Source: Halobacillus kuroshimensis DSM 18393 (GTDB taxonomy: Bacteria > Bacillota > Bacilli > Bacillales > Halobacillaceae). From it: DNA of 64,000 nt. Positions 10,985-39,544 of the stretch are shown piece after piece. The notes below the pieces were generated by a model. It searched no databases. It worked only from the letters and a program-made list of their open reading frames with translations, and had not been told where the DNA came from. Location of the stretch: the NCBI RefSeq assembly GCF_000425705.1, contig NZ_AUDY01000010.1, forward strand, positions 372,001-436,000. The letters are read 5' to 3'. A program made the translations under genes and the position numbers. Position 1 is the stretch's first letter. Every line of letters begins with the position of its first letter.

Positions 10985-13060
10985 ATGAAACGAGTATTGA
11001 TTGTTGGAGCCGGCAAAGGCGGTACTGCTCTGCTGAAGCTGCTTAGTCAAGTGGACCGTATGCAGGTAGTGGCTGTGACAGACATCAATTCAGACGCTCC
11101 TGGTCTTGCTCTTGCGGAATCCTATGGAATTCCAGCGGGCCGGTCCTGGGAGCAGTGGATACATAAAAAGATTGATATCGTTATTGAAGCGACTGGACAG
11201 GAAGATGTGTTCCAGTCGATTAGAGAAGAAAGAGATGAAACGACGGTGGTTATTCCAGGGTCAGTGGCTTATGTGACAGCTGAACTTCTGGAAGAAAAGG
11301 AAGCTCTTGTTCAAAAGCTGAAACGGCAGACGGATAACCAGCATTTCATTTTAAACAGCATTCACGATGGTATGATTGTCGTCGATCACAAGGAGAACAT
11401 TACATTCATCAACCCCAGCGCTGCCCGGATTCTGGGCAGAAATCATCAGGACGTTCTCCATTGTCCCGTTCAAGAGATTATTCCTGCCTCCAGACTGCCT
11501 TACACGATGGCTTCCAAACAGGAGGAAGTGAACAAGAAGCTGGAACTGGAAAATGGAAAGACGGTGGTGACGACCAGGATTCCAATGATTGACGAAAGTG
11601 GAAGTGTCATTGGTGCCTATGCGGTGTTCAAGGATATCACAGAGGTGGTTCACCTGGCTGAGGAAGTCACCGATTTGAAAGAAGTCAAAACAATGCTGGA
11701 AGCTATTATACAATCGTCGGATGAGGCGATTTCTGTTGTAGATGAGAATGGAAGCGGTTTAATGGTGAATCCTGCCTACACAAGGATTACTGGTCTCCCG
11801 GAAAAAGACATCGTCGGAAAGCCTGCGACAGTGGATATTTCAGAAGGGGAAAGTATGCATATGAAAGTCCTCCGTACGCGCAGACCTGTCCGAGGAGTGC
11901 GGATGAAGGTTGGTCCTGCCAGGAAAGATGTCCTCGTTAACGTAGCCCCTGTCATTGTCGATGGCAAATTAAAGGGAAGTGTCGGGGTTCTGCATGATGT
12001 GTCAGAGATTAAATCCCTGACGAGTGAATTGAAAAGAGCCCGGCAGATCATCCGAAGCCTTGAAGCGAAATACACGTTTGATGATATTATCGGAGATTCT
12101 CCTGAAATGACCCTGGCGCTCGAACAGGCTAAGGTTGGAGCGCGGACTCCGGCTTCTGTGCTTCTGCGTGGCGAATCAGGTACAGGGAAGGAACTGTTTG
12201 CGCACGCCATCCATAACGAAAGCGGGAGACGTCATAACAAGTTTATCCGGGTGAATTGCGCGGCCATAGCCGAGTCGCTGCTTGAAAGTGAGTTGTTCGG
12301 ATATGAGGATGGGGCTTTCTCCGGGGCACGCCGTGGAGGGAAAAAGGGATTATTTGAGGAAGCAGACAACGGGAGCATTTTTCTAGATGAAATCGGCGAG
12401 TTGACCCTGCCGATGCAGGCGAAACTTTTGCGTGTGCTTCAAGAAAATGAAATGATTCGTGTGGGCGGAACCAAACCGGTTCACATTGATGTGCGGGTCA
12501 TTGCTGCTACAAATATAAATCTGGAAAAAGCGATTATGAATAAAAATTTCAGAGAAGACTTGTACTACCGGCTGAACCGTCTTCCTATCTATATCCCCCC
12601 TCTCCGGGAAAGGATTGAGGACATCCCATTGCTGACCGCCCACCTGATTCAAAAGCTCAATGAGGATTATGGGCGGAACGTAACGTCCCTCAATGGAGAG
12701 GCTTACCAGTGTTTAATGGACTATCCGTGGCCTGGAAACGTAAGGGAACTGGAGAATATTATCGGAAGAGCTATGATCTATATGGAACATACAGATGAAA
12801 TCATAAAGCCTGAACATCTGCCCACTCTTAAAAAACAAGAGGATGCCGTCGAACCGGGCCGGACAGCTTCCGGTTGGACAGGGGAGACGCTGCAGGAGGC
12901 TGTGGACGACTATGAAAAGAAACTGCTCGTCGAAGCGTATCGTTCGCACGAGTTTAATAAGACCAAAACAGCCAAGGCTCTCGGTATTTCCATTAGAAAT
13001 CTTTATTATAAGCTTGAAAAGTATGGGTTGGATAAAAACAGCATGCAGTATTTTTCATAA
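10985..13060 (+). CDS. bkdR: Sigma-54-dependent activator BkdR
   Basis: BkdR activates the sigma-54 promoter of the branched-chain keto-acid operon downstream. The 691-residue protein has an N-terminal Rossmann-like segment ([17 protein letters not shown]), two PAS domains (about 115-225 and 235-345), an AAA+ domain with Walker A GESGTGKE near residue 395 and Walker [12 protein letters not shown], and a C-terminal Fis-type helix-turn-helix ([20 protein letters not shown]). The sigma-54 contact loop reads GAFSGA instead of the usual GAFTGA. The ATG at 10985 gives the B. subtilis length; 10919 would add 22 unsupported residues. Confidence 0.94.
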
Positions 13061-13117
13061 TGCAGAATCCTGCATGTGCCGAAAAGCCTTGTATGGCTGT
13101 CCGGGCGCATCAGACTT

Positions 13118-13135
13118 TTGGCATGAAATTTGCAT
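13118..13135 (+). promoter_or_regulatory. Sigma-54 (-24/-12) promoter of the bkd operon
   Basis: TTGGCATGAAATTTGCAT at 13118-13135 has GG (13120-13121) and GC (13132-13133) exactly 12 bases apart, the sigma-54 signature. A small palindrome ATGCAG-AATC-CTGCAT at 13060-13075 lies about 45 bases upstream and could be part of a BkdR enhancer site, which is inferred. Confidence 0.9.
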
Positions 13136-13162
13136 GAATGAGATTAGGGATGAGGTGAAGCT

Positions 13163-14065
13163 TTGAAATCGTTAGATGAACTGGTAGAGACAATTGACCG
13201 CACCAGCAGACAAACCGTGGCTGTCGCACAGGCCGCAGATCCAGAAGTGTTAAAAGCCGTGAAAATGGCCTTGGACCAGGATCTGGCTCGTTTTATCCTT
13301 ACAGGTGAAGAAGCGGATCTTAAAACGTGTGCCGCGGAGGCGGGCCTGCCGCTTGACCACCCGGATCTGCAGTGGAAACCGGCGCAGGCGAAAGAAAGTG
13401 CCCTCCTGGCTGTACAGGCTGTAGCAGAGGGGGAAGCGGATGTCCTGATGAAAGGGCATGTAGATACGAAAACCCTCCTGCAGGCAGTGCTCCATAAGGA
13501 ATACGGCCTTAAAAAAAGAAAGGTCCTTTCCCACGTAGCTTTGTTTGAAATTCCCGGGAGAGACCGATTAATATACTTAACAGATGCCGCTATGAACATT
13601 CAGCCAACGCTGGAGGACAAAGTGGAGATTATTCTCAATGCGGTGGAAGTGGCCCACAAAGCAGGGTGGGACAATCCGAAAGTGGCTGCCCTCGCAGCCG
13701 TAGAGGCAGTCAACCCTAAAATGCCGGCATCCACCGATGCTGCCTTGCTGACCCAGATGAACCGCCGTGGTCAAATCGCGGGATGTGTGGTGGACGGGCC
13801 GCTCGCCTTTGACAATGCGGTGGATGCAGAAGCGGCTGCTCATAAGAACATTCAGTCAGAAGTAGCCGGTCAGGCAGATATCCTCGTTGTTCCTACCATC
13901 GAGACGGCCAATGCGCTTTATAAATCGTTTGTATACTTTGCCCATGCCAAAGTGGCGGGTGTGATCAGTGGAGCATCCGCTCCCATCGTGTTAACATCAA
14001 GGGCTGATGATGCCCAGAGCAAAATTTACTCACTGGCTTTAGCTTTAAAAGCCAGTCAATCCTAG
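13163..14065 (+). CDS. ptb: Phosphate butyryltransferase
   Basis: Ptb interconverts butyryl-CoA (or branched-chain acyl-CoA) and the acyl phosphate. The 300-residue product belongs to the phosphate acetyl/butyryltransferase family, with conserved MLMKGHVDTKTLLQAVL-like and DGPLAFDNAVD regions and SGASAPIVLTSR near the end. Translation starts at TTG 13163, with GAGGTG 5 bases upstream. No ATG or GTG start would preserve the N-terminus. It is first in the seven-gene bkd operon. Confidence 0.93.
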   Translation: MKSLDELVETIDRTSRQTVAVAQAADPEVLKAVKMALDQDLARFILTGEEADLKTCAAEAGLPLDHPDLQWKPAQAKESALLAVQAVAEGEADVLMKGHVDTKTLLQAVLHKEYGLKKRKVLSHVALFEIPGRDRLIYLTDAAMNIQPTLEDKVEIILNAVEVAHKAGWDNPKVAALAAVEAVNPKMPASTDAALLTQMNRRGQIAGCVVDGPLAFDNAVDAEAAAHKNIQSEVAGQADILVVPTIETANALYKSFVYFAHAKVAGVISGASAPIVLTSRADDAQSKIYSLALALKASQS

Positions 14066-14077
14066 GAGGAATACAAA

Positions 14078-15181
14078 ATGGAAATTTTCAGCTATATGCA
14101 GGAATATGATTACGAGCAATTGTTGTTTTGTCAGGATGAACAGTCTGGTTTGAAAGCGATTATCGCCGTCCATGATACGACCCTCGGACCCGCTCTTGGA
14201 GGGACACGCATGTGGACGTATGCATCTGAAGACGATGCTGTTGAAGATGCTCTGCGTCTTGCTAAAGGAATGACCTATAAAAACGCAGCGGCCGGTCTGA
14301 ATCTCGGCGGTGGAAAGACCGTAATCATCGGTGATCCGAAAAAGGATAAAAATGAGGAGATGTTCCGCGCATTCGGCCGTTACATTCAAGGACTGAACGG
14401 AAGGTACATTACAGCGGAAGATGTGGGAACAACGGTTCAGGATATGGATTTAATTCATGAGGAAACCGATTATGTCACTGGGATTTCACCTGCCTTCGGT
14501 TCTTCCGGCAACCCTTCCCCAGTAACAGCCTATGGGGTGTACCGCGGAATGAAAGCAGCTGCTAAGGAAGGCTTTGGATCAGATTCCCTGGAAGGTAAAA
14601 CAGTTGCTGTCCAGGGTGTCGGGAACGTAGCTTTCACCTTGTGCCGCCATCTTCACGAGGAAGGTGCGAATCTGGTTGTGACCGATATTAATAAAGAAGC
14701 TGTTCAGCGTGCTGTTGAGGAATTCGGAGCTAAAGCAGTGGAGACGGACGAAATCTACAGCGTGGACTGTGATATTTATGCACCGTGTGCCCTGGGTGCG
14801 ACCATCAATGATGAAACGATTCCACAGTTGAAAGCGAAAGTCATTGCCGGTGCAGCAAACAACCAGCTCAAAGAAACGAAACATGGTGATATTCTTCATG
14901 AGAAAGGCATCGTCTATACACCGGACTATGTCATCAATGCGGGTGGCGTGATCAACGTCGCCGATGAACTTCACGGGTACAATAAGGACCGTGCGATGAA
15001 GCGAGTGGAAACCATCTACGATAACGTATCCCGTGTATTTGAAATTTCCCGCCGTGATAATATCCCTACGTATCTTGCAGCGGATCGTATGGCGGAAGAA
15101 CGCATTGAGCGTATGCGTCGTTCCCGCAGCCAGTTCCTTCAGAACGGCCATCACATCCTAAGCAGAAGACAGAACGGATAA
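14078..15181 (+). CDS. bcd: Leucine dehydrogenase
   Basis: Bcd is an NAD-dependent oxidative deaminase of leucine, valine and isoleucine that supplies the keto acids for the dehydrogenase complex encoded downstream. The 367-residue product carries the glutamate/leucine dehydrogenase N-terminal domain with ALGGTRMW and the catalytic-lysine region [19 protein letters not shown] near residues 68-86, and the Rossmann motif VQGVGNVAF near 180. It starts 12 bases after ptb, with AGGAGGAATAC upstream. Confidence 0.95.
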
Positions 15182-34172: not shown

Positions 34173-34210
34173 AAAAAAAGACACTCATGAAAAACGGAGT
34201 GTCTTTTTTT
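34173..34210. terminator. Terminator after the ABC permease, probably once shared with ALDH
   Basis: AAAAAAAGACACTC (34173-34186) and GAGTGTCTTTTTTT (34197-34210) form a perfect 14-bp stem. It is symmetrical, so it could end transcripts from both sides. The mobile island begins only 4 bases downstream and now separates it from the convergent aldehyde dehydrogenase gene at 38183. Confidence 0.9.
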
Positions 34211-34213
34211 ATT

Positions 34214-34242
34214 GGCTCTGCTGAAGTTTAATGTTGATATTA
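34214..34242 (+). repeat. Left terminal inverted repeat of the island
   Basis: This 29-base end begins GGCTCTG and ends GTTGATATTA. Its reverse complement partner is at 38148-38176. The mismatches are scattered, so both ends have aged. Confidence 0.75.
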
Positions 34243-34264
34243 TATACCGCTCGCGCCATCTTCA

Positions 34265-34447
34265 TCGTTGGATGAAGTTTATTGAATGTATGATAGAGGG
34301 TTAGCAGCCAAGTTGATGGGAGACGTTATCCACGTAACCTTGTTCTATTGGAGGCACAAGCTTCTTTCGGCATTAAAACAGATGGAAAGTTCAACATTCC
34401 AGGGTATCGTTGAAATGGACGAGACCTATTTCCTGTACCTGACTTAG
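34265..34447 (+). pseudogene. IS1595-family transposase remnant (frameshifted, truncated)
   Basis: One frame reads HRWMKFIECMIEG and then stops. A shift of one base continues as LFYWRHKLLSALKQM and then FQGIVEMDETYFLYLT before a stop at 34445. These are recognisable inner blocks of IS1595-type transposases, including the DET of the catalytic DDE-type domain. The N-terminal zinc-binding part and the whole C-terminal half are missing, so no functional transposase is encoded. Confidence 0.75.
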
Positions 34448-34467
34448 TTTCAGGTGTTAGAGAGTAT

Positions 34468-34513
34468 TTTCGCTAAAGGGCAGGTTAATTGAAGACTCGA
34501 ATTCAAGATAAAC
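34468..34513 (+). repeat. Degenerate copy R0 of the gene-flanking module
   Basis: The stretch contains an AAAGGGC...TTAATTGAAG part followed by ACTCGAATTCAAGATA. The same elements occur after the four genes of the island, here in a rearranged order. It lies between the transposase remnant and the OLD gene. Confidence 0.45.
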
Positions 34514-34564
34514 ACCTTCTTTTACCAATATTTATGTTATGATTTGGAAAAAGGAGGAGTTTGA

Positions 34565-36337
34565 ATGAGAGATTCTAACCAACAAATTTCTGATGAAGAA
34601 GTTGCGACATCAAGACCTCGATTACATAAGTTGAAAATTAAGAATTTCAGAGCAATTGGACCAACACCTGTCACAATCGATTTGGATGAGATTGTGGTTT
34701 TAGTAGGACCTAATAATGCAGGTAAAAGCTCCATATTAAGAGCTTATCAAGTAGTAATGTCAGAAGGGTCAAATAATGCAAAGTTATTTATTGATGATTT
34801 TCCTAATAAGGTAGTAGATCCTAATAATGCACCCGAAATTGAATTATACTCTATTGTTAATTCAGAAAACTCACCAGGGAAAAGATGGATCGATAATTCA
34901 TCCGGTGAAATGATAGTCAGAGAAAGATGGAAATGGGCAGAGCCTGGCTCTCCAAGAAGACAAGGTTATGATGCTAATATCAATGATTGGGCTGAAGAAG
35001 TACCATGGGGGGCTGCTAATGTTGCAAACTCACGAAGGCCAGAACCTCATAGGGTGGATGCATTTGAAAACCCAGAGGATCAAGCGAAATCAATTATTAA
35101 AATATTAGAGTCTATTCTAAATGAAAAAGTGAAGGAAGTAACTTCAAATATAGAAGCAGATGGTGACAAGACTGAATTTGGTTCGCTTTTAGAACAAATA
35201 AAGGGAATACAGAAAAAGATTGTTGACGAGTCGGAATCTCAAATAAGAATAGTTGAATCTGAACTAACTAGTTCAATAAATAAAGTATTCCCAGGATATC
35301 AAGTTAGTTTTGATGCCAAACCTGAAGATGAGATAGAGAAGTCAATTAGTTTTTTTAAGAGTTCACCTCAATTATTAATGGGTCCTGAGAATGGTTTTAA
35401 AAGTGATATCGAAAAGCAAGGTAGTGGTGCACGAAGAACACTCCTATGGGCTGCTTTGAGGTTCATCACAGAGAATGGATATCACAAGAAAAGTAAAAAA
35501 GATCGTCAAAGTTCATTAGAGAGACCTAATGTGTTACTAATTGATGAACCAGAATTATGTTTGCATCCAAGTGCAATTAGAGAAGCATGTAAAGTACTTT
35601 ACGACCTGCCTAAAACTAATAACTGGCAAGTGATGGTGACGACACATTCTCCAGCATTCATAGATTTATCTAGAGATAACACTACAATTGTTAGAGTAGA
35701 AAGAGATATTGATGGAGCTATTCAGGGTACTACACTATTCAGACCTGATAAAGTACAACTTGATGAAGATGATAAACGTTTATTGAAACTCTTAAATCAA
35801 TTTGATCCATATGTAGCTGAGTTTTTCTTTGGAGGACGTTCAATTATTGTTGAGGGTGACACTGAATATACCGCATTTAAGTATGTAATTAATAATGAAG
35901 GCGATTTCTTTAAAGATACTCATGTGATTAGAGCGAGAGGGAAAGCAACGATTGCTTCATTAGTTAAAATTTTGAATCACTTCAATTGTAGTTATTCAGT
36001 GTTACATGATAGTGATACACCTTTAAACAAAAATAGAGGTAAAAGTGCGGCTTGGGGAACAAATAAAAATATTTTGAATTCTGTTAAGCGACATTCTAAT
36101 CCTGAAGAGGTAAGGCTTGTAAGTTCTATTAAAAACTTCGAATCTGCTTTCTTAAGCAAGGAAGTAAGTAGTGACAAACCTTATAATGCTCTTATGGAGT
36201 TGACTAGGGATGATGAGGCTTATAAAAGCATAAGGGAGCTCTTACATGCTTTGTACAATCATGACCACAACTTACCAAAAGGTGCTATTGAATGGGATCA
36301 TATTTCTCAACTTGAGGAAGCTGTTAGTGAGATGTAA
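34565..36337 (+). CDS. OLD-family ATPase/Toprim nuclease
   Basis: The 590-residue product has an SMC-like ATPase with Walker A GPNNAGKSS (residues 48-56), a signature-like QGSGARRTLLWAAL near 280, Walker B VLLIDEPELCLHPSA near 323-337 and an H-loop TTHSPAFI near 360. A Toprim nuclease domain follows, with IIVEGDTEY near 426-434 and LHDSDTP near 480. OLD proteins act as phage-exclusion nucleases. No UvrD-like helicase gene follows, so it is a stand-alone OLD protein rather than Gabija. GGAGGAG precedes the ATG, and an extended -10 TGTTATGAT lies at 34535-34543. Defence is inferred. Confidence 0.88.
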   Translation: MRDSNQQISDEEVATSRPRLHKLKIKNFRAIGPTPVTIDLDEIVVLVGPNNAGKSSILRAYQVVMSEGSNNAKLFIDDFPNKVVDPNNAPEIELYSIVNSENSPGKRWIDNSSGEMIVRERWKWAEPGSPRRQGYDANINDWAEEVPWGAANVANSRRPEPHRVDAFENPEDQAKSIIKILESILNEKVKEVTSNIEADGDKTEFGSLLEQIKGIQKKIVDESESQIRIVESELTSSINKVFPGYQVSFDAKPEDEIEKSISFFKSSPQLLMGPENGFKSDIEKQGSGARRTLLWAALRFITENGYHKKSKKDRQSSLERPNVLLIDEPELCLHPSAIREACKVLYDLPKTNNWQVMVTTHSPAFIDLSRDNTTIVRVERDIDGAIQGTTLFRPDKVQLDEDDKRLLKLLNQFDPYVAEFFFGGRSIIVEGDTEYTAFKYVINNEGDFFKDTHVIRARGKATIASLVKILNHFNCSYSVLHDSDTPLNKNRGKSAAWGTNKNILNSVKRHSNPEEVRLVSSIKNFESAFLSKEVSSDKPYNALMELTRDDEAYKSIRELLHALYNHDHNLPKGAIEWDHISQLEEAVSEM

Positions 36338-36478
36338 GTTTATTTGGATTACTTTTCTTAATTTAAAAGGTTGTTTTCATACTGCCAAGTAATCACCAAA
36401 GAAGCCTCTGAACTTAAAGATGGTAAGAAAAAAGATCACAGACTTGTGTATAACCCTAATCATTAATATTAAGAATAT

Positions 36479-36537
36479 CTCGTTTTCAAGTCTTCAACTA
36501 TAGGGGGCGTTTCTTCAATTGAAGGATCGCCTTTTTT
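36479..36537 (+). repeat. Module R1 after the OLD gene, with terminator
   Basis: CTCGTTTTCAAGTCTTCAAC then GGGGGCG...TTCTTCAATTGAAGG. GGCG (36506-36509) and CGCC (36528-36531) enclose the palindrome CTTCAATTGAAG and are followed by TTTTTT, so this copy also forms a terminator. The 141 bases between the OLD stop and this copy hold only a short ORF tail (36362-36466) without a start or ribosome site. Confidence 0.7.
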
Positions 36538-36627
36538 ACATTGGTATAGTTTGGGAATGTACTCCGCTGGTAATAGAGGTCAGTAAGGACAGAGATTAAA
36601 TATAGGTAGTAGGAGGAGAATTGCAAT

Positions 36628-36801
36628 ATGAATAAAAGAATTAAGGATCGCATTATCTCTGCACTCGCTTATGCAGTCGCTGCTATTCTCTTCGGATACT
36701 TCATATTCGGTGAAATGAACTGGTCACTTGTATTAGGATTAACGCTAGGCGGTTTCACTTTTCCTATAACAGGCAAGTTTGGGCGTAGTAACACATCGTA
36801 A
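36628..36801 (+). CDS. Small membrane protein, 57 aa
   Basis: The protein begins MNKRIKDRIISALAYAVAAI and has two hydrophobic segments, about residues 10-28 and 33-47, with a basic N-terminus. I do not recognise the family. GGAGGAGAA lies 8 bases before the ATG, a good ribosome site. It is the second passenger gene of the island and is followed directly by module R2. Confidence 0.7.
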   Translation: MNKRIKDRIISALAYAVAAILFGYFIFGEMNWSLVLGLTLGGFTFPITGKFGRSNTS

Positions 36802-36807
36802 AAACCA

Positions 36808-36852
36808 CTCGAATTCAAGTCTTAAAGAAACGGGGGCAATTACTCAATAGAG
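36808..36852 (+). repeat. Module R2 after the small membrane protein gene
   Basis: CTCGAATTCAAGTCTTAAAG, then AAACGGGGGCAATTACTCAA and TAGAG. It aligns with R1 base for base over about 45 positions with roughly two thirds identity, including CAAGTCTT and GGGGGC at the same spacing. Confidence 0.7.
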
Positions 36853-36910
36853 TTTTTGTCTAATGTGTAATGCGTGACATTCTAACTATCTATACTTAGG
36901 AGGGCTATTA

Positions 36911-37390
36911 ATGGAGATTACAGCAATAAGTGATATTTCCAAGGCTAAAGTAATTGATTTTTTCAAGCAGCATTGGGGTAGTACAGTAATGGTTATTTCT
37001 TCTGGGATTTATGATTGTAGTAAACTGGACGGATATGCGGTATTAGATAATGACGAGGCAGTTATTGGTTTAATTACTTATATAATTACCAACGATACAT
37101 GCGGAATTATTTCTTTGGATAGCACAGAAGAAAATAAAGGGATCGGGACCTCTCTTATAAAAGCAGTTGAGAGAGGTGCATTAGAGAATGAATGTAAATA
37201 CATAAACCTTATAACCACTAATGATAATTTATTAGCACTGAAGTTTTACCAAAAACGTGGTTATGTTTTAGCAGATTTATATAGAAATGCAGTTGGAAAA
37301 GCAAGGGAATTGAAGCCCGAAATTCCATTTGAAGGTAACGATGGTATTCCTATTAGAGACGAAATTAAGCTCGAAAAATTATTAAGATAA
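36911..37390 (+). CDS. GNAT family N-acetyltransferase (first)
   Basis: The 159-residue protein has the acetyl-CoA pyrophosphate-binding motif A in NKGIGTSLIKAVER near residues 78-91 and motif B in ALKFYQKRGYVLADLYRNA near 113-131. The family transfers acetyl groups to amines; the substrate is not predictable. AGGAGGGC precedes the ATG. It is a passenger gene of the island with AT-rich codon use. Confidence 0.85.
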   Translation: MEITAISDISKAKVIDFFKQHWGSTVMVISSGIYDCSKLDGYAVLDNDEAVIGLITYIITNDTCGIISLDSTEENKGIGTSLIKAVERGALENECKYINLITTNDNLLALKFYQKRGYVLADLYRNAVGKARELKPEIPFEGNDGIPIRDEIKLEKLLR

Positions 37391-37409
37391 TAGCCAGAGT
37401 AGTTTGTAT

Positions 37410-37475
37410 TTCACTCTAATCTCTTGAGTCTAAGCCTTTCGCTGGTGTGGGCTATTCTTCAATAAAGACGAAAGC
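37410..37475 (+). repeat. Divergent module R3 after the first GNAT gene
   Basis: The stretch has CTCTTGAGTCTAAGCC, then GTGTGGGCTATTCTTCAATA and AAG. Only the GGGC-N-TTCTTCAATAAAG half matches the other copies well. CTTTCGC (37436-37442) can pair partly with GACGAAAG downstream. Confidence 0.45.
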
Positions 37476-37537
37476 TTTTGTGCTCACAGAGAAGGATAGT
37501 TGAAGAAGGGTTTTGATATTTACGAAGGGGGATTAAA

Positions 37538-38002
37538 ATGATCTTTGAGGATATTGATATAAATAAACATCAAGATACAGTAGTTAGATTTCGGAAAGAT
37601 TCATTTTATGTAAGTTTTGGGGATACTATGAGTTTCGGTGAAGAAGAGGAATATTTAAGCTGGTTAGATGAAAAAATCGGAGATTTTCCTGAAGGTTTTG
37701 TATTAGCCAAAGAAGATGGTAAATATATCGGACAACTTGAATTAACTATTCATAAATACGAAGGCAATAAAATTGGGTATGTAAACTTGTATTATTTAAC
37801 ACCGGAAATGCGTGGACAAGGTAAAGGGAAAGTTTTACACCAATATGCAAAGCAATTCTTTAAAAACAATGAAGTTCGTGAGTATCATCTAAGAGTCTCT
37901 CCATCAAATAACCACGCGATCAAGTTTTATCGTTCATTCGGAATGGATGAAATCGGTCCAGAAGTTGGTGGAAAAGTAATTAGAATGAAAGGTTATATAT
38001 GA
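37538..38002 (+). CDS. GNAT family N-acetyltransferase (second)
   Basis: The 154-residue protein carries motif A in MRGQGKGKVLHQYAKQF near residues 88-104 and motif B in NNHAIKFYRSFGMDEIG near 126-142. It is of the RimI-like or broad GNAT type and not close to its neighbour. GGGGGAT precedes the ATG. It is the last passenger gene, followed by module R4 and the right end of the island. Confidence 0.85.
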   Translation: MIFEDIDINKHQDTVVRFRKDSFYVSFGDTMSFGEEEEYLSWLDEKIGDFPEGFVLAKEDGKYIGQLELTIHKYEGNKIGYVNLYYLTPEMRGQGKGKVLHQYAKQFFKNNEVREYHLRVSPSNNHAIKFYRSFGMDEIGPEVGGKVIRMKGYI

Positions 38003-38030
38003 GATTTTATATAGTTCTAGTGGACGCTTA

Positions 38031-38098
38031 GTTTAACACTTGAATTCAAGATATTTCGAATTCAAGTGTTAAACAAAAGGGACTTTAGTTCAATAAGT
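38031..38098 (+). repeat. Module R4 with perfect 17-bp hairpin
   Basis: GTTTAACACTTGAATTC (38031-38047) and GAATTCAAGTGTTAAAC (38058-38074) are perfect inverted copies around a 10-base loop. The right arm belongs to the shared module TTCGAATTCAAGTGTTAAAC plus AAAAGGGACTTTAGTTCAAT seen after the other genes. The ends GTTTAAC and GTTAAAC fit the RYYYAAC/GTTRRRY form of integron attC core sites. A palindrome with these ends would match automatically, so this is only suggestive. Confidence 0.7.
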
Positions 38099-38106
38099 CA
38101 ATTACC

Positions 38107-38143
38107 AAAAAAAGGAACCCCATAAAATTGGAAGTTCCTTTTT
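38107..38143. terminator. Terminator near the right end of the island
   Basis: AAAAAGGAAC (38109-38118) and GTTCCTTTTT (38134-38143) form a 10-bp stem. It would end transcription from the GNAT gene and, on the other strand, from the aldehyde dehydrogenase gene. Confidence 0.7.
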
Positions 38144-38147
38144 GTAG

Positions 38148-38176
38148 TAATATCAACTCTAAAATTTAACAGAGTC
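38148..38176 (-). repeat. Right terminal inverted repeat of the island
   Basis: Read on the minus strand it begins GACTCTGTTAAATTTTAGAG and matches the left end at 23 of 29 positions. It ends 6 bases before the aldehyde dehydrogenase stop codon. Confidence 0.75.
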
Positions 38177-38182
38177 TTTTAA

Positions 38183-39544
38183 TTAACCGAAGATCCGCTT
38201 CATGATAGCCAGTCCAAGGGATGAACCGGGATAACGGAAGCTTTGATCGAATTTAGTGGTTTGTTTTGTAATGCTCTTCTGATGGGTGAACGTGTCAAAG
38301 CTGGCCTGGCCGTGGTAATGACCCATGCCACTTTCACCAACGCCCCCGAAGGGGAGGTGAGGGTTGATAATATGGTAAAGGGTGTCATTGATACAGCCTC
38401 CACCGAATGAAATGCGGTTGAGCACCTGCTGCTGTTCGATTTCATTTTCTCCGAAGTAATAAAGGGCCAGTGGTTTTGGACGTTCGTTAATCTGTTCAAC
38501 CACCTCATCCAGTTCATCATAGGTGAGGACCGGAAGAATCGGTCCGAAAATCTCATCCTGCATCACAGGATCAGCCCAAGTCACCTGATCGAGGATGGTG
38601 GGAGCGATTTTCTCCTGGCGTTCATCGACAGCTCCCCCGACAACGGTCGTACCGGACGTTAAATAATTGGAAAGTCTCTCAAAGTGGGAGGCATTCACGA
38701 TTTTCGTATAGTCCGGGTTTTTGAGAGGATGTTCTCCGTAGAACTCCTGGATGTACTTCTTCATCGATCGGATCAGGTCAGCCTTCACTTCATGATGGAC
38801 GTACAAATAGTCCGGAGCAATGCAGGTCTGCCCGGCATTGGTGAATTTCCCCCAGACAATCCGTTTGGCAGCAAGGTCTACGGAAGCATCTTTATGGACG
38901 ATGGTCGGGCTCTTCCCGCCAAGTTCGAGTGTGACTGGAATCAACCGTTGGCTCGCTTTTTCCATGATGATTTTCCCAACCGGAACACTTCCTGTGAAGA
39001 AGATGTAGTCCAGAGGCTGGTCGAGCAGCTCCTGTGTCACGTCCTTATCCCCTTCCACAACAGTAATATAGGAGGAAGGGAAGTACTGCTCCACCATCTT
39101 TTTCAATACCCAGGAAACGGTCGGTGTCAGTTCGGAGGGTTTAAGGATGACCGTATTTCCAGCCGCAACGGCTCCGATCACCGGGGCGAGGGCCAGCTGA
39201 ATCGGATAATTCCACGGGGCAATGACAAGGACGGTTCCGAATGGCTCTTTTTTGATGTAGTTTTTTGAACCGGTATGTGTGAGAGGCGCTTTAACCTTTG
39301 TCGGCTGCATCCAATTTTTCAACTGTTTAAGATGATGGTCGATTTCACTCTTAAGAAAAGCAATCTCTGAGGCATAGGCTTCATATTCGGATTTGTTCAA
39401 ATCAAATTTTAATGCATTCAAAATCGGTTTTTCAAAGGTGGTGAGCATCTGTTTCATCTTCTGCAGCTGCTCCCTGCGAAAGGTGTAGCTTCTCGTGTGA
39501 CCTTCCTGGAACCATGATTTCTGTGCTTGTACAATGGTATGCAT
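38183..39544 (-). CDS. Aldehyde dehydrogenase (class 3-like)
   Basis: The 453-residue NAD(P)-dependent enzyme oxidises aldehydes to acids. Its length and sequence fit the short class 3 / coniferyl-aldehyde type (B. subtilis YwdH group). Motifs are APWNYPIQLALAP, the NAD-binding FTGSVPVGK near residue 183, the catalytic Glu in LELGGKSP and the nucleophilic Cys in NAGQTCIAPDY near 244. A C-terminal segment ending IMKRIFG may associate with the membrane. It lies 12 bases downstream of rnz, and the mobile island abuts its stop codon. Confidence 0.92.
   Translation of the reverse strand: MHTIVQAQKSWFQEGHTRSYTFRREQLQKMKQMLTTFEKPILNALKFDLNKSEYEAYASEIAFLKSEIDHHLKQLKNWMQPTKVKAPLTHTGSKNYIKKEPFGTVLVIAPWNYPIQLALAPVIGAVAAGNTVILKPSELTPTVSWVLKKMVEQYFPSSYITVVEGDKDVTQELLDQPLDYIFFTGSVPVGKIIMEKASQRLIPVTLELGGKSPTIVHKDASVDLAAKRIVWGKFTNAGQTCIAPDYLYVHHEVKADLIRSMKKYIQEFYGEHPLKNPDYTKIVNASHFERLSNYLTSGTTVVGGAVDERQEKIAPTILDQVTWADPVMQDEIFGPILPVLTYDELDEVVEQINERPKPLALYYFGENEIEQQQVLNRISFGGGCINDTLYHIINPHLPFGGVGESGMGHYHGQASFDTFTHQKSITKQTTKFDQSFRYPGSSLGLAIMKRIFG

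Follow-up and report, generated by a model that had tools for sequence, protein, structure and literature searches.

We propose that the island at 34214–38176 of the window (the whole 64-kb stretch of DNA analysed) is very probably an IS1595 transposon with a decayed transposase, carrying an integron-like array which is orphaned and for which a dedicated Xer-type tyrosine recombinase is the likely enzyme. The layout would run from a compact head site through four independent cassettes to an end module, behind which lies the right inverted repeat; each cassette would close with a site made up of a conserved left arm, a GGGGGC-type centre, and a right arm bearing a terminator-like hairpin. Site-specific recombination inside the GGGG centre would insert, swap and excise cassettes, probably catalysed by an enzyme of about 280 amino acids whose gene adjoins the array head site in related bacteria, while the orphan array would have moved as a block via IS1595 transposition. 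The sites, the arrays, the boundaries at cores, the linkage of recombinase, head site and array in relatives, the complete carriers and the insertion are documented by the sequences.

The island is bounded by inverted repeats of the IS1595 type at 34214–34242 (+ strand) and 38148–38176 (− strand), the former being of the same type as the ends of a complete IS1595 carrier. Recomputation gave 23 identities in 29 positions, as originally claimed, and in the 400-nt stretches around both ends this best end-to-end match of 23 compares with 17–20 in 12 shuffles. The flanking octamers TTTTTATT (34206–34213) and TTTTAATT (38177–38184), already described as near-identical, agree at 7 of 8 positions and are a probable target duplication. 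Members of the IS1595 family produce 8-bp duplications, and some have passenger genes. The island has a GC content of 0.351 versus 0.477 for the rest of the window, in keeping with the claim that its genes are AT-rich and unlike their surroundings. Of the relatives read on both flanks, 16/16 lack the island, and only 27–475 bp separate their two flank alignments. Because all of these sites are empty and complete carriers exist, the analysis supports the view, put forward in the original prediction, that the island is real and was inserted, as an IS1595-type carrier, between the ABC permease and aldehyde dehydrogenase genes.

Just inside the left end, where a broken IS1595-type transposase had been noted, lies a remnant on the + strand (34239–34467). 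Nucleotides 34239–34442 share 81% DNA identity with a Pontibacillus transposase gene of the IS1595 family, and the 21-nt stretch 34447–34467 matches near the 3′ end of the same gene; the transposase gene in the window has therefore suffered internal deletions. A tblastn search with 34286–34444 revealed 84% over 45/53 amino acids to an annotated IS1595 transposase. No Pfam match was obtained with a hand-typed 58-amino acid reading of the remnant, and the IS1595-type transposase domain (PF12762) is absent from this bacterium's own genome; a complete relative, itself a carrier, possesses it (2.3e-13). The IS1595 end pattern was found 0 times in viral contigs. The Pontibacillus plasmid NZ_CP062975.1 contains two IS1595 carriers with different cargo and perfect 8-bp duplications (8/8 each), ATTCGAAA and TTATATTA. 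The DUF6176 cassette also occurs alone on this plasmid at 117317–117976 (98%), with its limits at sites.

The gene junctions of the island repeat one recombination-type site, a feature which the original prediction had missed, giving five sites for four genes. A 50-nt model, R1, built from other genomes and without the window sequence, yielded five matches in the window at E ≤ 0.05, all inside the island. Likewise, a matrix of 75 Peribacillus sites, from another family than the window host, reached at least 4 bits only four times in the 64-kb window, always on the + strand at island junctions, and 0 times in three shuffles. Site A (34478–34511, +), the compact-type head site, has its GGGCAG centre at 34478–34483 followed by a right arm (R1 match 34484–34511 on the − strand, E 6.7e-7); its left arm is not recognisable, and a similar arrangement is seen in another locus (L147). 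Sites B (36474–36520, +; R1 E 2.4e-10) and C (36808–36850, +; E 9.7e-15) have GGGGGC cores at 36503 and 36832, respectively. Site D (37448–37509, +), which like site A is degenerate, has its core at 37448–37470 and a second box at 37476–37509; it scores 13.6 bits with the Peribacillus matrix, is missed by R1 at E 0.05, and gives a weak HMM fragment at 37449–37465 (E 2.3). Site E (38028–38097, +) comprises a right arm (38028–38055; R1 E 3.7e-6, − strand) and then a left arm with core (38051–38097; E 5.3e-8, + strand). The end module carries a terminator-like hairpin (38101–38151, +; inverted repeat I22) and recurs in the genus. By eye, a terminator-like hairpin also follows site B.

The contents had been given as an OLD nuclease, two acetyltransferases and a small membrane protein. 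Cassette 1 (34565–36337, +) encodes an OLD-family ATPase-TOPRIM protein, a candidate anti-phage function (PADLOC Old, 1.1e-99; Pfam OLD-like_TOPRIM, 4e-11); cassette 2 (36628–36801, +) a 57-amino acid protein that looks membrane-like by eye and matches no Pfam family significantly; and cassettes 3 (36911–37390, +; Acetyltransf_1, 3.4e-11) and 4 (37538–38002, +; GNAT2, Pfam 3.5e-16) GNAT acetyltransferases. The proposal that these genes were captured as one block was not supported, the genes being separate cassettes; some of them occur in relatives with no transposon ends next to them, which the original prediction had named as an argument against insertion as a unit. Nucleotides 36503–36815, containing the small membrane gene, are 88% identical in DNA to Halobacillus litoralis (G014:C2:1245–1557); the cassette begins at the site B core in both, and its right limit is site C in the window, but in H. 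litoralis it ends 304 nt before the following core is detected. The GNAT2 cassette matches two further genomes, G010 (37449–38081, 95%) and G019 (37449–38078, 88%), and in both it is delimited by the site D and site E cores; its neighbours differ in G010, and in G019 an end module again lies behind it. Among the matches listed, none linked the OLD cassette in DNA to any of the other 21 genomes.

R1 matches are present in all 22 sampled Halobacillus genomes and range from 1 to at least 150 per genome, although one site may yield two matches; there are 12 in G000, at least 150 in five genomes, and a single weak one in G020. An exact early site pattern was too narrow, finding three stretches in genome contigs, of which only that in Halobacillus litoralis (L045) was judged, by its flanks, a true site. 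The window and 13 array loci, regions chosen because of their clustered sites, contain 131 site intervals shorter than 2.5 kb, with a median of 612 bp; 99 of these intervals hold exactly one gene, and 133/156 genes lie on the site strand. These loci thus display the tandem, mostly one-gene, same-orientation cassettes, each with a site, that are expected of an integron. Ten GGGCAG-centred compact sites each precede all other cores of their locus (0 before, 1–14 after). The cassette genes are small and GNAT-rich, and include NUDIX, transporter and OLD-type defence genes. Of 136 cassette ORFs, the 111 with at least 75 amino acids were screened with PADLOC, which returned one family (C3a186, two members), which we read as the product of an over-broad model. 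No known RNA family reached gathering scores in 43 kb of arrays plus the island.

In three relatives (L156, L183 and L184) a gene for a 281-amino acid Xer-type tyrosine recombinase is followed directly by a compact, attI-like GGGCAG site and then by the array, and these loci, together with those of Peribacillus, combine the recombinase gene, primary insertion site and array of an integron. Seven Peribacillus recombinase loci are 94–98% identical over their last 300 nt, and 24–45% identical in the DNA past the site (shuffled, 37%). Of 377 genomes sampled across the order, 68 carry a member of the dedicated recombinase clade, and so do 37 of 131 genera. A close recombinase (85–100%) occurs in only 3/22 Halobacillus genomes versus site matches in 22/22; G009, G015 and G019 retain no more than fragments of it, most of which are interrupted by stops. 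The genome of the window lacks the recombinase-head-array arrangement and any close copy of the recombinase, and the island array is therefore an orphan, like CALIN. In Peribacillus, no co-occurrence of recombinase and sites (one pattern) was found: 7/12 genomes with the recombinase and 15/24 without it had sites. These distributions weigh against the main reading, as do the missing covariation between site halves, the alignment ends away from cores, the degeneracy of window sites A and D, and the lack of an OLD cassette match among those listed. We infer both the part of this enzyme in cassette recombination and the mode of strand exchange.

Pdif modules are gene modules surrounded by XerCD sites of the form arm-6 nt-arm. 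The sites could be dif-like modules of this kind, recombined by housekeeping XerC/XerD with no dedicated enzyme, since they share the arm-6 nt centre-arm layout and flank gene modules, and the relatives of the recombinase in the window's genome are all distant (best 41%, in the Xer clade). This is unlikely, as the arrays, unlike pdif modules, are essentially of one orientation and have at their heads a dedicated recombinase whose clade is set apart from the Halobacillus Xer proteins by a fully supported split. It is still less likely that we are dealing with an ordinary IS1595-family transposon with passengers, whose junction repeats are terminators or REP-like elements shuffled only by homologous recombination. 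In its favour, the IS1595 ends, the remnant and the empty junctions are genuine, the sites contain terminator-like hairpins, and Bacillus genomes hold stem-loop repeat families, Bant-1 and Bhal-1, described as unexplained (PMC2267715). Against it, 27/76 alignments between array loci end no more than 20 nt from a core (5.6% expected) and 12/76 start that close to one (5.9% expected); the sites share the orientation of the genes; and the head site, 37–38 nt past the recombinase gene, is immediately followed by unrelated DNA. The remaining 49/76 alignment ends, which do not lie near a core, weigh the other way.

A canonical integron with IntI and attC, overlooked by standard tools, is very improbable: the order of recombinase, attI-like site and cassettes, the many cassettes with small GNAT-rich genes, and the score of recombinase P0001 on NF040815 (XerA_Arch, "site-specific tyrosine recombinase/integron integrase"; 221.7, NCBIfam cut-off 220) would fit, but the TIGR02249 cut-off is reached in 0/22 Halobacillus genomes, P0001 scores 97 against a cut-off of 265, and the 281-amino acid proteins skip profile positions of about 182–233, as Xer proteins do. 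No canonical integrase with the additional IntI domain near patch III was thus recognised. On the XerC model P0001 scores 209 (cut-off 335), and the best PDB sequence matches are 4a8e (XerC-like) and 1a0p (XerD), with IntI4 matching only at residues 203–267. Pairing within the sites is possible, but attC-like folding was not supported: there was no covariation between site halves and no clear excess over shuffles. Box 1/box 2 pairing in 47 Peribacillus sites showed no such excess, and in 29 Halobacillus sites just one of 27 arm positions, the innermost, had a level of pairing that as few as 46/2000 shuffles reached. We read the system as integron-like and distinct from IntI/attC integrons.

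More broadly, we consider it probable that the Bacillales own a large, hitherto unrecognised integron lineage in which an Xer-type recombinase lacking the IntI domain assembles arrays that can total a hundred cassettes or more in one genome, and in which IS1595 transposons capture array pieces, including anti-phage genes, and spread them between replicons. The IntegronFinder 2.0 paper (PMC9024848) gives integrons as very rare in Firmicutes, listing one complete integron (Limnochorda pilosa) and a few CALIN. No description of such a system in these bacteria was found among the open-access PMC titles and abstract beginnings surveyed. If the action of the recombinase is confirmed, the Bacillales would possess their own cassette-shuffling platform, integron-like recombination would be possible without the IntI-specific domain, and a store of small accessory genes for acetyltransferases, NUDIX proteins, transporters and OLD-type defence would become readable.

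Among known systems, IS1595-family transposons with passenger genes are alike in their ends and, in the complete relative, in PF12762 and the 8-bp duplication; here, in contrast, sites downstream of the transposase gene would make the cargo exchangeable. A parallel is offered by class 1 integrons on Tn402, in which the transposon moves the cassette array as a block, although the present carrier belongs to the IS1595 family and has no integrase on board in the window. With chromosomal integrons and CALIN the system shares a recombinase gene beside the head site, unidirectional arrays with roughly one gene for each site, the occurrence of both large and orphan arrays, and shared cassettes with different neighbours. 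It differs from chromosomal integrons in that the recombinase is Xer-type, skips the profile stretch of the IntI insertion and, in Halobacillus as well as in one Peribacillus clade, is oriented toward the array, and in that the sites are long-armed, with a GGGGGC or GGGCAG centre and no sign of folding covariation.

The island at window positions 34214-38176 is a carrier of the IS1595 family whose transposase has decayed; it holds an orphan array in which all four cassettes belong to one system. As in the original prediction, it is AT-rich (GC 0.351 versus 0.477 elsewhere in the window), its inverted ends are 23/29 identical (at most 20 in 12 shuffles of the same stretches), its flanking octamers agree at 7/8 positions, and a broken IS1595 transposase lies inside the left end. 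Positions 34239-34442 show 81% DNA identity to a transposase gene of this family from Pontibacillus, and 34447-34467 align close to its 3' end, from which we conclude that the island's transposase gene has been internally deleted. Relatives also show an empty junction here: both flanks could be read together in 16 of 21 same-genus relatives (G001, G009, G010, G012 and G019 are not among them), and all 16 lack the island, with 27-475 bp between the flank alignments.

The original prediction overlooked that the four genes are separated and flanked by similar junctions; we call these recombination-type sites A (the head) to E (the last). A related motif, AACTAAMGGGNGCNNTTAGTTNAATAA (up to two mismatches), is frequent in a genus of another family, read as Peribacillus, occurring in 22/36 genomes with no instance of the reversed pattern. 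A weight matrix from 75 Peribacillus sites reached 4 bits or more just four times in the window, always on the plus strand at island junctions (34466, 36491, 37476 and 38067), and never in three shuffles. When the island was compared with 22 genomes of its own genus using blastn, short matches recurred at four of the junctions (A, B, C and E) as well as at the ends. R1, a 50-position sequence model made from 52 sites of other genomes, gave five matches in the window at E ≤ 0.05, all within the island, and missed the degenerate site D. It matched all 22 genomes of the genus, with 12 matches in the window's own genome (G000, 3.85 Mb in 15 contigs, with the window at C3:372001-436000), one in G020 (E 0.004) and at least 150 in five genomes; these numbers are not cassette counts, as one site may yield two matches, one per arm (compare sites A and E). 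The window's own genome also holds another array end (L164:4560-5160; G000:C1:155059), which shares the island's IS1595-type end module. Among the stem-loop repeats in Table 3 of PMC2267715 are two families of Bacillus genomes, Bant-1 (72 bp, 104 copies) and Bhal-1, with no literature entry in that table; judged from the table rather than from the repeat sequences, they might represent cassette sites of the kind described here.

The proposal that the genes were captured as one block found no support. The GNAT2 acetyltransferase cassette recurs in G010 (95% over 37449-38081) and G019 (88% over 37449-38078), the limits being the cores, or centres, of D and E; in G010 it has differing DNA on both sides, and in G019 the end module again follows. 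For the small membrane protein gene, the H. litoralis match (88%, 36503-36815) runs in the window from the B core to the left arm of C; on the H. litoralis side, 304 nt separate its end from the next core detected. Near-identical cassette ends followed by differing DNA right past the core were seen at L147 9946 and L148 16347 (within one genome), L150 3179 and L153 10508, and L151 14495 and L160 5091. Of 76 alignments between array loci, 27 had their end no more than 20 nt from a core of one or both loci (5.6% expected), and 12 had their start as close to one (5.9% expected); 41 started no more than 40 nt away, many of them where the left arm begins, a raw count without an expected value. These alignments indicate that the cassettes move one at a time. 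The OLD-family candidate anti-phage gene (34565-36337) rides as a single cassette, and had no counterpart among the matches listed in the search of the genus genomes.

Three places in G010 and one in G002 (L147:14355-17035, L148:1240-3919, L184:7904-10584 and L156, oriented 12278-14961) share, at 94-99.9% identity, an element of 2.7 kb that encodes a reverse transcriptase-HNH protein of 604 aa (scanned in L147) and starts 30-43 nt ahead of a site core. Group IIC-attC introns target integron sites, and by analogy this element is perhaps a group II intron targeting the present ones.

Array statistics were drawn from the window and 13 relative loci picked for clustered matches, with genes called by a simple frame picker. 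The 131 site intervals below 2.5 kb had a median of 612 bp and held one gene in 99 cases, two in 19, more in five and none in eight; 133/156 genes lay on the same strand as the site. A domain scan taking in 111 of 136 cassette ORFs (≥75 aa) was headed by GNAT acetyltransferases (Acetyltransf_1 in nine), with S66 peptidases, RDD, MFS, NUDIX and others. Both arms were recognised in 29 Halobacillus sites. Of these, 12 are compact, with a 6-nt centre between two 27-nt arms (GGGCAG centre in ten). The other 17 are expanded: their arms are 43-54 nt apart, and the spacer typically combines GGGGGC with a terminator-like hairpin and a GGGCAG-like end. All ten GGGCAG compact sites precede every other core in their loci (none before, 1 to 14 after), and three lie directly 3' of a recombinase gene (L156, L183 and L184). 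No covariation was detected between the arms of the 29 Halobacillus sites or between box 1 and box 2 in 47 Peribacillus sites, and attC-like folding is therefore unproven; the missing arm covariation agrees with arms reassorting through recombination.

The L156 recombinase, P0001, is a 281-aa tyrosine recombinase encoded upstream of the compact site and array, and homologues occupy the same position in L183 (98%) and L184 (85%); two further copies at 53-54%, in G021 and G002:C20, showed no compact site right downstream, and G009, G015 and G019 hold fragments only. Homologues (E ≤ 1e-75) were found in 68/377 genomes of the order. They form a clade split with full support from same-genus Xer proteins, and R138, K162, H229, R232, H255 and Y264 are invariant in 34/34. 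By TIGR02249 the recombinase is Xer-like rather than IntI; it scores just above the cut-off of NF040815, whose name includes integron integrase. GAAATAATTGGTATTAA follows shortly after the stop codon in 9/22 distinct recombinase loci. Seven Peribacillus loci (G215 contributes two, one chromosomal and one on a plasmid) are 94-98% identical over the final 300 nt of the gene and 62-94% over the 66 nt behind it; over the subsequent 100 nt, identity falls to 24-45%, comparable to shuffled DNA (37%). Five of the seven have a site within five mismatches of the consensus at +37/38 nt past the stop; in L212 the site at this position diverges further from it, and L221 shows a box1-like site, then a hairpin and an IS1595-type end. 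In another subfamily, an inverted site was seen by eye 3' of the gene (L211, L213, L215-L217, L219). Any simple link between recombinase and sites is weakened, because the two are not associated in Peribacillus (sites in 7/12 genomes with the recombinase, 15/24 without) and a close recombinase is missing from most of the Halobacillus genomes that have sites. Plasmid CP053689.1, labelled Arthrobacter citreus, carries this recombinase at 127827-128666, coordinates identical to those in G405:C2; as G405 is a genome of the same order as the window, the plasmid has probably been mislabelled.

A complete carrier (IS1595 transposase, PF12762 2.3e-13) resides on the Pontibacillus sp. ALD_SL1 plasmid NZ_CP062975.1. 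Between its inverted repeats, the transposase is followed by a 74-aa gene and then a DUF6176 gene, with a site ahead of each and another behind the second; a terminator-like hairpin separates this last site from the closing repeat. The carrier splits a glutamine synthetase gene, with ATTCGAAA at both flanks. A second carrier there (769587-770978) is 89% identical over the left end and transposase; its cargo is different and shorter, and its duplication, TTATATTA, is perfect. There is part of a third at 186554-186990, and the DUF6176 cassette occurs alone at 117317-117976 (98%, site to site, neighbours differing). The Halobacillus end module matches 17 distinct fetched loci (weakest E 8e-4), some fetched for that match, and adjoins a called site in at least L149, L150, L153, L154, L160 and L164. 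L160 lacks a transposase between its left repeat and the compact head, which sits 30 nt inside that repeat, and it also has a right repeat; in L147 a compact site adjoins a transposase remnant, as in the window. An IS1595-like element at L190:3196-4298 (G014:C10, presumed H. litoralis) has a perfect 8-bp duplication, TTTCTGTT, and by eye contains an apparently decayed transposase and one passenger gene.

In searches of an open-access paper collection, no listed paper described this system. Compared with integrons, the island array works like an integron array but, by the tests made, falls outside the IntI/attC family.
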